A stretch of DNA of 35,657 nt from assembly GCA_947491475.1 (NCBI GenBank), contig CANLKN010000034.1:1-35657 (forward strand), read 5' to 3'. Positions 24,234 through 27,101 of this stretch are shown here, in pieces. The notes under the pieces are model-generated. The model was not told where the DNA came from. It saw only the letters and a program-made list of their open reading frames with translations, and did no database searches. Position numbers and translations under genes: made by a program. Positions within the stretch are counted from its first letter, which is position 1, and the number at the start of each line of letters is the position of its first letter. The stretch is from Akkermansiaceae bacterium (GTDB lineage: Bacteria > Verrucomicrobiota > Verrucomicrobiia > Verrucomicrobiales > Akkermansiaceae).

Positions 24234-27101
24234 ATGTCCGAGCCGGATCTGTTTTCATTAGCCGAGTCGAAATCTCCGGAGACCCGCATCCGCGAGCTGC
24301 GCAAGACGATCCGTCATCACGACGATCTCTATTATAATAAGGCCACACCGGAAATCTCCGACGCGGAATACGACAAGCTGTTCCGCGAACTCGAAGAGCT
24401 CGAAAAAAAACATCCCGAACTCCACGACCCCAACTCCCCCACCCTTCGCGTCGGCGGCTCTCCGCTCAAGGAGTTCCAACAGGTCCGCCATCTCGTCCCG
24501 ATGCTCAGCATCGATGATGTCTTCGAACTCAAGGACGCGCCGGAACCGGCCGCCGAGCTCATCGCCTTCTATCAGCGCCTGCGCAAGAACCTCGGCCGCG
24601 ACGACATCACCGTCACCGTCGAACCCAAAATCGACGGCGTCGCTGTTTCCCTGCTCTACCGCGACGGAAAACTCGAACGCGCCGCCACCCGCGGCGACGG
24701 CACCACCGGCGACGACATCACCCAGAACGTCCGCACCATCCGCTGCATTCCGCTGGATCTGAAAGTAGCTGGAGCCTCCGGCTCCAGCACTCCGGCGTTT
24801 GACCTCGAAACTTTCCTTCCTTATCTACCGCCCCATGAACAGTATCAATCAAACACAACTGCTCGCGGATCATCTTCGGGCAGCCCGGAGGAGAGCCTCC
24901 GAAAAAGGCTCGAAAATGACCTCGCAGCAAGTCATGGACACGATCTTCAGGAACGGCTCCGACAGGAAACCCAATCCATTCTTGACTGGGGAACTGAGAC
25001 TGGTCGGATCCTCTCGCCAGACGAATTCTTTGACGTCGTCAAAGATTGGAGGGAACTAGGCGGACAATCCGAACACACGGTTTTTCACATCGAAAAGCTG
25101 GCAAGGGTCATCAAATTCACTCTTCCACCCAATTTCGGGGCTCAAGGAAGCATCGATTATCTCAAGAACATCGGAGCTTCCAACCGCCTCTTCGGCGATG
25201 ACATTCGTTTTCACGGCATCCTAAATACAGACAAAGGCCCGGCCTATGTCATTTCCCAACCATACGTCGAGGGTTCTGAACCAGAACCCTCGGAAGTCGC
25301 CGCTTGGTTCGAGACCAACGGCTACCAATCCACCGGTCACAACCGGTGGAGACATCCGGAAACCGGCACCGAAATCGCCGACGCTCACGTCGGCAACCTC
25401 ATCAAAACCGATGATGGCGAACTCATCCCCATCGACCTCCAGGTTCTCAATGAGGGTGATCTTCCATCCACCATCTACAATCCACCATCCACGATCCCCA
25501 ATCTCCTCGAAATCCGCGGCGAGATCTTCATGCCGAACGCAGCCTTCGCCGCGATGAATGCCGAACGCGACGAGGAGGGCCTGCCAACTTTTGCCAACCC
25601 GCGCAACGCCACTGCCGGCACGCTCAAGCAGCTCGATCCGAAAATCGTTGCCAAGCGCCCGCTCGCCTTCCTCGCCCACGGCCTCGGCGCCTATGAGGGG
25701 GAGCCGCTCGAAACCGAGCACGATTTCCATGCGCTATTAGACGGACTCGGCATCCCGCGCAACCAACCGGTCATTGATGCCCGCAATCTCGATGAAGTGC
25801 TCGAAGCCGTCGCGCACATCAACCAGCACCGCCACGACCTCGACTACGGCACCGACGGAGCGGTCATCAAAGTCCTCGACCGCGCCGAGCGTGAGCAACT
25901 CGGTTTCACCTCGCGCGCGCCGCGCTGGGCCGCCGCCTACAAGTTCCTGCCCGAGCAGAAGGAAACCATGCTCGAAAACATCACCATCCAGGTCGGCCGC
26001 ACCGGGGTGCTCACGCCGGTGGCCGAACTCACGCCGGTGCTTATTTCCGGCTCCACCGTTTCCCGCGCCACGCTGCACAATCAGGACGAGATCGACCGCA
26101 AACAAATCCACATCGGTGCGAAGGTGCTCATCGAAAAAGCCGGTGAAATCATTCCCGCAGTGGTTAAGGTGACGCAGCCCGTTTCCGGCGCGGAAACCTT
26201 TTCCATCTTCGGGCACGTCGGCGGCAAATGCCCGTCCTGCGACGGCCCGATCTCGCAGGAAGAAGGCTTCGTCGCCTGGCGCTGCACCAATTTCCAATGC
26301 CCGGCCCAGGCGGTCACGCGCATCGCCCACTTCGCCTCGCGCAAAGTGCTCGACATCGATGGCCTTGGCGAAACCGTGGCCGAGGCGCTGGTCCGCCACG
26401 GCCATTGCAAAACCCCGCTCGACCTCTTCGACCTGACCGAAGAAACGCTGGCAAACCTCAACCTCGGCACCGACGAGGCCCCGCGCCGTTTCGGCGAGAA
26501 GAACGCCACCAAGGTGCTCGCCGCATTGGAAGATGCGAAATCCAAACCTCTCCAACGCTGGCTCTTCGCCATGGGCATCCGCCATCTCGGCGAGTCCGCG
26601 TCCAAGGAACTTGCGCGCCTTCACCACAACCTAACAGAAATCGCCGGATCTCCCATCCTCGCCGAACTCCTCAAGGACACGCGTGCCGACGCAAAAAAGA
26701 AAAACGAACTCCTGGCATCCTACTTCATCACCGGCGACGTCGGCCCCGCAGTGGCGGAAACCGTCACCGCATTCTTCTCCTCGGGAGCCGGAAAACACGT
26801 GCTCACCCGCCTCGCTTCTCTCGGCATCGATCCTCAATCTCCGATCTCCAATCTCCAATCTCCCACCATTGGCCCCCTCGCCGGAAAAACCTTCGTCATC
26901 ACCGGCACCTTGAGCACCGACCGCGACGCCATCAAAGAGCTGATTGAAAGCCTGAGCGGCAAGGTCAGTGGCTCGGTATCGGCGAAGACGAGTTATGTTC
27001 TCGCTGGCGAAGGCGGCGGCTCCAAGCGCGACAAAGCCGAAAAACTTGGCGTGCCGGTCATTGATGAGGAGGAACTGCGACGGATGATGGGCGGAGGTTG
27101 A
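24234..27101 (+). CDS. ligA: NAD-dependent DNA ligase LigA with a kinase-like domain inserted in the adenylation domain
   Basis: 955 residues versus about 670-700 in the family. Seals nicks using NAD. Domains: Ia (1-75), adenylation domain with active-site Lys132 in [16 protein letters not shown] (151-161), [11 protein letters not shown] (167-177). The insert spans about 178-422, after which [12 protein letters not shown] (424-435) resumes the family sequence, then [12 protein letters not shown] fold with [12 protein letters not shown]; Cys4 zinc finger (CPSC and later Cys pair, about 665-690); helix-hairpin-helix domain with [16 protein letters not shown] domain (about 880-955, [10 protein letters not shown]). 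A short low-complexity linker ([11 protein letters not shown]) precedes the BRCT. All ligase parts appear intact and the frame is open throughout. Confidence 0.93.
24765..24787 (+). repeat. REP-like GTAG-headed palindrome at the LigA insertion junction
   Basis: GTAG followed by perfect arms CTGGAGCC and GGCTCCAG with a TCC loop. It begins exactly at the codon (residue 178, Val) where LigA family sequence ends, and is translated as VAGASGSS. Confidence 0.6.
24886..24901. repeat. Palindrome inside the LigA insertion
   Basis: Perfect arms CGGAGG and CCTCCG around AGAG. Translated within the EESLRK segment. Confidence 0.5.
25268..25292. repeat. 11-bp-arm palindrome inside the LigA insertion
   Basis: Perfect arms CGAGGGTTCTG and CAGAACCCTCG with an AAC loop. 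It is translated as part of [11 protein letters not shown] in the kinase-like domain. Confidence 0.7.
25329..25350. repeat. 9-bp-arm palindrome inside the LigA insertion
   Basis: Perfect arms TCCACCGGT and ACCGGTGGA with a CACA loop, translated as STGHNRW in the kinase-like domain. Confidence 0.7.
25466..25497 (+). repeat. Minisatellite-like repeat at the right junction of the LigA insertion
   Basis: ATCCACCATC occurs at 25466-25475 and 25480-25489 (period 14), followed by a degenerate copy; translated [13 protein letters not shown]. It leads directly into the resumed LigA sequence. Confidence 0.6.
26835..26862 (+). repeat. Four 7-bp repeats in the LigA linker before BRCT
   Basis: CAATCTC, CGATCTC, CAATCTC, CAATCTC in tandem, translated [10 protein letters not shown]. 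It lies between the helix-hairpin-helix part and the BRCT domain, so it can vary without harming a fold. Confidence 0.8.

Follow-up and report, generated by a model that had tools for sequence, protein, structure and literature searches.

The window, by which is meant the whole stretch of 35,657 nucleotides analysed here, carries a ligA gene encoding an NAD-dependent DNA ligase of 955 amino acids in a reading frame devoid of internal stop codons (Table 1). The product matched NF005932 (747.6 bits, cut-off 369) and TIGR00575 far above cut-off, split in two stretches of which the better begins at residue 408. Alignment to E. coli LigA (2owo) paired residue 176 with residue 159 and residue 420 with residue 163; the surplus therefore stands in place of a turn of three residues, approximately ten residues ahead of the motif III glutamate. 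The resulting loop (residues 177-421) is 245 amino acids long, about 241 above the commonest loop length of 4 amino acids, in agreement with the initial annotation, which had counted some 245 surplus residues at one point of the protein and had noted that they were poorer in GC than their surroundings. The G+C content of the insert is 53.2% compared with 61.6% in the remainder of ligA, and its GC3 is 0.555 compared with 0.765. Over 42 rows, mean GC3 was 0.589 for the insert versus 0.755, the insert being lower in 40.

Table 1. Features of the insert-bearing ligA gene, with positions in the window
Feature	Position	Strand	Remarks
ligA, NAD-dependent DNA ligase with internal kinase-like domain	24234..27101	+	955 aa
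Ligase N-terminal part, residues 1-176: Nlig-Ia plus start of adenylation domain	24234..24761	+	KxDG lysine K132
In-frame insert, residues 177-421, linkers included	24762..25496	+	
Variable N-linker with palindromic GGAGCCTCCGGCTCC (24771-24785)	24762..24800	+	length and sequence vary among species
Conserved insert body, residues 190-405 (DLE..LPY to IDLQVL)	24801..25448	+	alignments of 11 LigA and of 46 inserts
N-terminal helical part, residues 218-256	24885..25001	+	AlphaFold2 helices; alignment A3
Kinase-PolyVal (PF18762) match, residues 277-401	25062..25436	+	Pfam profile
E280, assigned as family glutamate before strand 2	25071..25073	+	kept 46/46
K294, ATP-site lysine (VIKF)	25113..25115	+	kept 46/46
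Q342 (SQP), assigned as family glutamine ending the N-subdomain	25257..25259	+	kept 46/46
Catalytic loop DAHVGN with D383 and N388	25380..25397	+	each 45/46; exception G170
D401, DFG-like aspartate (PIDLQ; IPIDLQV)	25434..25436	+	45/46; exception G170
Variable C-linker with repeat-like CACCATCTACAATCCACCATCC (25469-25490)	25449..25496	+	
Ligase C-part: rest of adenylation domain, OB, Zn finger, HhH, BRCT	25497..27098	+	

Related short repeats occur at 25459-25506, in the C-linker of the insert, and at 26830-26863, in the linker before the BRCT domain; in some other species the C-linker is occupied by AAAATTC repeats. An intein was considered and rejected: the boundary residues and the linkers vary among the aligned rows, and splicing residues were absent by eye at both ends. 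A HipA-like kinase gene (27519-28754, minus strand), with matches to HipA_C and Couple_hipA, lies near ligA in convergent orientation and belongs to a different kinase family.

The ligase parts on either side of the insert retain the KxDG lysine K132, the motif III glutamate E430 (which aligns with E173 of E. coli) and the zinc-finger cysteines C666, C669, C684 and C689, and the ligase motifs were kept in 11 aligned LigA rows wherever these were not cut off. The earlier description of the flanking motifs, zinc finger and BRCT domain as intact is borne out. The genome (3.89 Mb, 96.6% complete, 182 contigs) holds one PF01653 gene, the insert-bearing ligA; the second ligA for which the initial annotation had allowed was not found with this profile, nor did a profile search find a PF01068 ligase in the genome, the controls being positive in 6 of 14 genomes. 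Judged by its sequence, the insert-bearing LigA is probably a working ligase. Elsewhere, one genome (G050) carries beside its insert-bearing ligA a second, distant LigA-like gene (L069, 698 amino acids, approximately 33-44% identity), and two genomes (G386 and G366) gave two adenylation matches each.

The kinase-like domain

The Pfam profile Kinase-PolyVal (PF18762) matched residues 277-401 of the whole LigA (E 6.9e-11, 42.8 bits, cut-off 27) and gave 46.3 bits against the same cut-off with the insert alone; 16 of 16 members of alignment A3 matched it in a scan at E values up to 1. The kinase passages of Iyer et al. (2017; PMC5512222) describe this family as protein-kinase-like, lacking a C-lobe, present in polyvalent proteins of phages and conjugative elements, and reported from Verrucomicrobia among others. 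A kinase-like insert of the polyvalent-protein family had been proposed at the outset, and the profile search, with its match above cut-off, was positive for precisely that family. The motifs then read as kinase-like (VIKF with K294, SQP, DAHVGN and IPIDLQV) were found in place, and K294, Q342, D383, N388 and D401 within them are kept in 45 to 46 of 46 inserts.

K294, E280 and Q342 were kept in all 46 LigA inserts and do not vary over the 16 diverse rows of A3, the placing of E280 and Q342 as residues that mark the family being our own assignment. These three stand among the 44 of 241 columns that are invariant over the 46 inserts. D383, N388 and D401 were each kept in 45 of the 46 and are likewise invariant in the diverse rows. 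On the residues present, the marks of the Kinase-PolyVal family appear to fit the insert in all but the histidine mark. The family also has a conserved histidine, separated from the catalytic aspartate by an insert. H369 is a candidate for it, being histidine in 41 of the 46 inserts and tyrosine in five; in relatives outside LigA the column is mostly tyrosine or another residue. In one LigA insert (L119, genome G170) the equivalents of D383, N388 and D401 are all changed while the rest is conserved, so that this copy is likely a pseudokinase and activity is not always retained.

The conserved body stops at residue 405, four past D401, and the AlphaFold2 model, which extends to residue 412, has no helices beyond; the C-terminal kinase subdomain thus appears to be absent from the insert. 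The N-terminal helical part was also found in free-standing and polyvalent homologues (alignment A3). The model of the insert (15 rows) had a pLDDT of 83.6 and a pTM of 0.80, and it resembles phage PolyVal kinases: the best Foldseek matches in the viral library were a large polyvalent protein (E 1.6e-14, TMq 0.63) and then a PolyVal kinase (E 4.3e-9). Judged by title, the 50 PDB rows listed were kinases or proteins of kinase fold; their fold scores were modest, three of them reaching E values of 0.001 or lower, with TM of about 0.3 and Z of at most 7.2, a level that the tool rates as common. A sequence search of solved structures with the kinase gave no match (best E 0.41). A model of the full 955-residue LigA (11 rows) reached a pLDDT of only 50.9 and was set aside. 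A P-loop kinase domain, as in polynucleotide kinase-ligase fusions, was not found: Pfam gave no such match and, instead, the PolyVal kinase profile, and the model is kinase-like.

Distribution, loss and exchange

Within this group of uncultivated Verrucomicrobiota, 38 of the 73 genomes examined in the genus have the insert in LigA, 34 with both ligase halves and 4 on cut contigs, and one further genome (G019) has a partial insert. An order sample of 386 genomes added eight LigA inserts, five of them belonging to genus g22, two to g24 and one, that of G131, to another family, and a phylum sample of 387 genomes yielded no additional LigA insert at E 1e-20, as judged by frame length. Ten named MAG records with the LigA insert are labelled Akkermansiaceae, Verrucomicrobiaceae, Verrucomicrobiales or Verrucomicrobia, and the record names LacPavin and Loclat suggest lakes; the family is probably Akkermansiaceae. 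Since these ten records and 38 of the 73 genus genomes carry it, the insert is not an accident of assembly, that candidate being refuted by the recurrence of the same insert; an alignment of related LigA, which had been recommended as a check, shows it recurring at the same site.

The partial insert of G019 (L053 and L052) seems to lack the first part but to retain the kinase core, its ligA being divided over two contigs. One bin (G033; L060 and L077) contains insert-bearing and insert-free ligA fragments at contig ends, possibly from two strains of one population. In another genome (G060, L076) the LigA frame breaks near the N-linker of the insert into overlapping frames of 274 and 800 amino acids, through a sequencing error or a real split.

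Among 104 LigA rows, the full insert (234-275 amino acids) was present in 42, a remnant in 4 and none in 58, the last having 3-21 residues at the site. A core tree was built from 104 of the 105 LigA rows, leaving out the extra LigA-like gene of G050; the rows of G011, G022, G033b, G010 and G024 were short. On this tree, which came from a quick search with no mixture model and with long branches warned of, the full state required at least 24 changes, 19 of them forced by starred branches, compared with a mean of 33.0 after shuffling. Close relatives were found to be unlike in the presence of the insert (G106/G102, G049/G099, G001/G024 and G013/G040). The remnants are in frame: that of G006 (113 amino acids) lacks the kinase core but still has the first part as well as the terminal IDLQVL, that of G020 consists of 98 amino acids of the first part, and those of G034 and G035 measure 35 and 27 amino acids. 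G055 has no insert, yet it has the C-linker repeat that stands behind the inserts of G001 and G013. The insert has been lost repeatedly and in frame, with the ligase retained, the core tree giving the number of changes rather than the direction of each.

In the insert tree, the 46 LigA inserts formed one clade (100/100), separate from free, polyvalent and NspC copies, and the simplest reading of this single clade is one founding insertion. The history of the insert has not followed that of the ligase. Six groupings, picked after the trees had been seen, were tested. The window genome (G000) and G104 are sisters on the ligase (support 99), a pairing rejected on the inserts (p 0.0017), as was the pairing, within genus g24, of G355 with G309 (ligase support 99; p 0.005). 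Conversely, the insert clade of G104, G001 and G009 (99) was rejected on the ligase cores (p 4.7e-6), as was the grouping of G355 with G005, G058 and G008 (p 1.7e-6), for which the inserts gave a support of 78 in this test's quick tree; in the insert tree described above, G355 joined these three and two further rows with 100/93. In genus g22 no conflict was seen in either tree, and the grouping of G109, G057 and G105 was not rejected on the cores (p 0.19).

Synonymous divergence between G005 and G058 was 0.320 for the core and 0.031 for the insert, and between G015 and G056 it was 0.724 and 0.194; the window genome and G104 showed the opposite (core 0.544, insert 0.942). Some relatives thus have near-identical inserts in more divergent ligases, which together with the conflict between the trees argues for horizontal exchange, probably by homologous recombination through the ligA flanks. 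Changes of identity inside the insert (G015/G017) suggest breakpoints there too. DNA profiles of sister pairs showed no clear conversion tract, the dips in identity beside the turn being small. The LigA of G131 (L032, 3473-6250) is chimeric, through natural recombination or co-assembly of two genomes: its first seven 50-residue core windows are 72-94% identical to the LigA of the window genome and its last six 24-52%, G079, which shares its family with G131, being nearer there (54-70%).

In 20 non-independent pairs, dN/dS of the insert was 0.13-0.37 in 17 and exceeded that of the core in 18, the core having 0.06-0.25. Three close pairs with low dS gave 0.59-0.89 for the insert. From the kept catalytic residues and this purifying selection we infer that the insert is an active ATP-using phosphotransferase.

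Related domains occur in other enzymes. In ten genomes one lies in frame within carboxynorspermidine decarboxylase, NspC. The nspC profile was split in L133 and L134, and likewise in 4 of 141 order genomes. An alignment of nine of the genes, leaving out L200 of G194, gave one shared position, which corresponds in the solved NspC structure 9eaf to the point between residues 257 and 264; for G194, the tenth case, the split was shown by searches with the nspC profile and the insert. The four NspC copies in the insert tree formed one clade (100/98) separate from LigA. A hydantoinase-like protein (HyuA, L187) carries the domain between its residues 310 and 577, whose counterparts in the solved structure are residues 224 and 238, and in L147 the domain stands ahead of GlgB in one frame to the contig end; these two cases come from one genome each and rest on single MAG contigs. 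In L190 and L195 it lies behind an oligopeptide ABC ATPase in a single frame. Polyvalent copies occur with LPD3, LPD37 or MuF_C domains. Relatives were found on four viral contigs (four loci in a scan with a mixed alignment, and the same four contigs in a further scan). Scans of viral contigs with the LigA inserts alone, and with a kinase on contig C91 of the window's own genome, found no relative, and one query with a free-standing homologue found no match in collections of phage and plasmid records.

Origin and role of the insert

Taken together, these data probably reflect an accessory, conflict-type kinase carried by housekeeping enzymes, which was inserted once, was lost repeatedly and was exchanged between species while the ligase went on working. 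A Kinase-PolyVal domain would have entered the LigA turn once, in frame, in one family of Verrucomicrobiales. It would fold as a separate domain, leaving the sole ligase found in the genome in working order, and many in-frame losses would have followed, together with transfer from species to species, for which homologous recombination via the flanking ligA sequence is the simplest route. The putative kinase would most likely phosphorylate cellular or invader proteins, in an accessory function of the conflict type. The related domains in other housekeeping enzymes indicate that the carriers are probably interchangeable, with the benefit presumably arising from the kinase and not from altered ligation. 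Confidence in this explanation is slightly lowered because the catalytic histidine of the family could not be placed.

More tentatively, and with somewhat less than even confidence, the LigA insert may belong to a wider class of invasive non-splicing enzyme domains. Kinases of phage origin would enter, in frame, the surface turns of enzymes that are unrelated to one another and either essential or of the housekeeping kind, remain active, and spread between species as alleles of their carrier genes, so supplying the cell with a kinase function gained and lost like a defence gene.

A tolerated selfish passenger, useless to the cell, hard to delete from an essential gene and spread by recombination, would also be expected to occur patchily, to be lost repeatedly, to pass from species to species and to sit in several carriers, and the G170 copy without its three catalytic residues agrees with this. 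The purifying selection on the domain, with its 44 of 241 invariant columns over 46 inserts, makes such a passenger unlikely, and the insert has no known means of mobilising itself.

Alternatively, the insert could act as a guard or abortive-infection device, in which phage attack on the host ligase, or its replacement by the phage, would free the kinase and the cell would shut down. The fast turnover, which may be likened to that of defence genes, and the essential carrier would suit such a device. The kinase passages of PMC5512222 link the family to phage and plasmid conflicts; the NspC and HyuA carriers are not obvious phage targets, and a guard is held to be improbable.

The position of the insert, some ten residues before the motif III glutamate, its conserved ATP-site residues and its retention in frame might instead point to a regulatory domain, in which ATP binding or autophosphorylation alters nick sealing and couples the NAD+-dependent ligase to the ATP level or to damage signals. 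About half of the genus lacks a full insert, however, and in-frame loss of the domain has left the ligase in place. The signal-controlled or 'domesticated' ligase conceived in the initial annotation is conjectural. Losses this frequent, coupled with horizontal exchange, speak against a settled part in regulating ligation and favour an accessory domain that is mobile. With the history of the insert unlike that of its host ligase, and with related domains in unrelated enzymes, NspC and HyuA among them, ligase regulation is decidedly improbable.

End healing, whereby the kinase would phosphorylate 5'-OH ends of nucleic acids for the ligase to seal, is suggested by the tethering of a kinase to a ligase, as in polynucleotide kinase-ligase fusions. 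The end-healing kinases known are P-loop proteins, whereas the insert looks like a protein-kinase fold and has relatives in enzymes unrelated to nucleic acids, so that this role is very improbable. An artefact of assembly or a dead ligase, conceivable for a window from an assembly of 182 contigs, has a negligible chance of being correct given the recurrence in 38 of 73 genus genomes and ten named MAG records, the kept ligase motifs and the finding of no other ligase.

Under the favoured explanation, that of a mobile accessory kinase, an enzyme domain would have entered essential genes, and moved between them, in frame and without signs of splicing, which bears on the origins of multidomain enzymes. 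Near relatives with and without the domain provide a natural experiment on its function, and with the only ligase found as the carrier, tests of activity are simple. For annotation pipelines, ligA, nspC and other genes can conceal a second enzyme.

Comparison with known systems

The Kinase-PolyVal family and LigA, here its carrier protein, are each known; their combination may be new. The initial annotation had allowed that the insert might be a LigA variant already known. No such variant, nor any report combining LigA with Kinase-PolyVal, was found, judged from titles and the openings of abstracts, in the literature searched, which covered few subscription journals, most of these lying outside it. 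With the family as set out in the passages of PMC5512222 on kinases, the insert shares the profile match, the family glutamate and glutamine, the ATP-site lysine, the catalytic aspartate and asparagine, the DFG-like aspartate and the missing C-lobe. It differs in sitting inside housekeeping enzymes rather than in a polyvalent protein of a phage or conjugative element, and carriers of the former kind receive no mention in the kinase and ligase passages of that paper. As an NAD-dependent LigA, the window protein shares all domains and motifs, scores above cut-off and its single copy in the genome, differing in about 240 extra residues at a three-residue turn of the adenylation domain.

OspG and NleH are secreted effectors, small kinases without much of the C-lobe. 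Both appeared among the PDB rows as small kinase folds like the insert, with Z scores of 6.0 to 6.7 to its model; they differ as secreted effectors of other bacteria, and the sequence search of solved structures lists neither.

Inteins are in-frame, patchy, horizontally exchanged elements that occupy fixed sites in essential genes, and the insert is like them in each of these traits. It is unlike them in that no splicing motifs were seen at its boundaries, its linkers vary and the domain should remain in the protein product. The insert may be the first example of enzyme domains that form a class of their own, invasive but not splicing. Rickettsia palindromic elements resemble it in being inserted in frame into unrelated genes at tolerated places; these elements are short and encode no enzyme, whereas the LigA insert would fold into a domain, and its active site is conserved.
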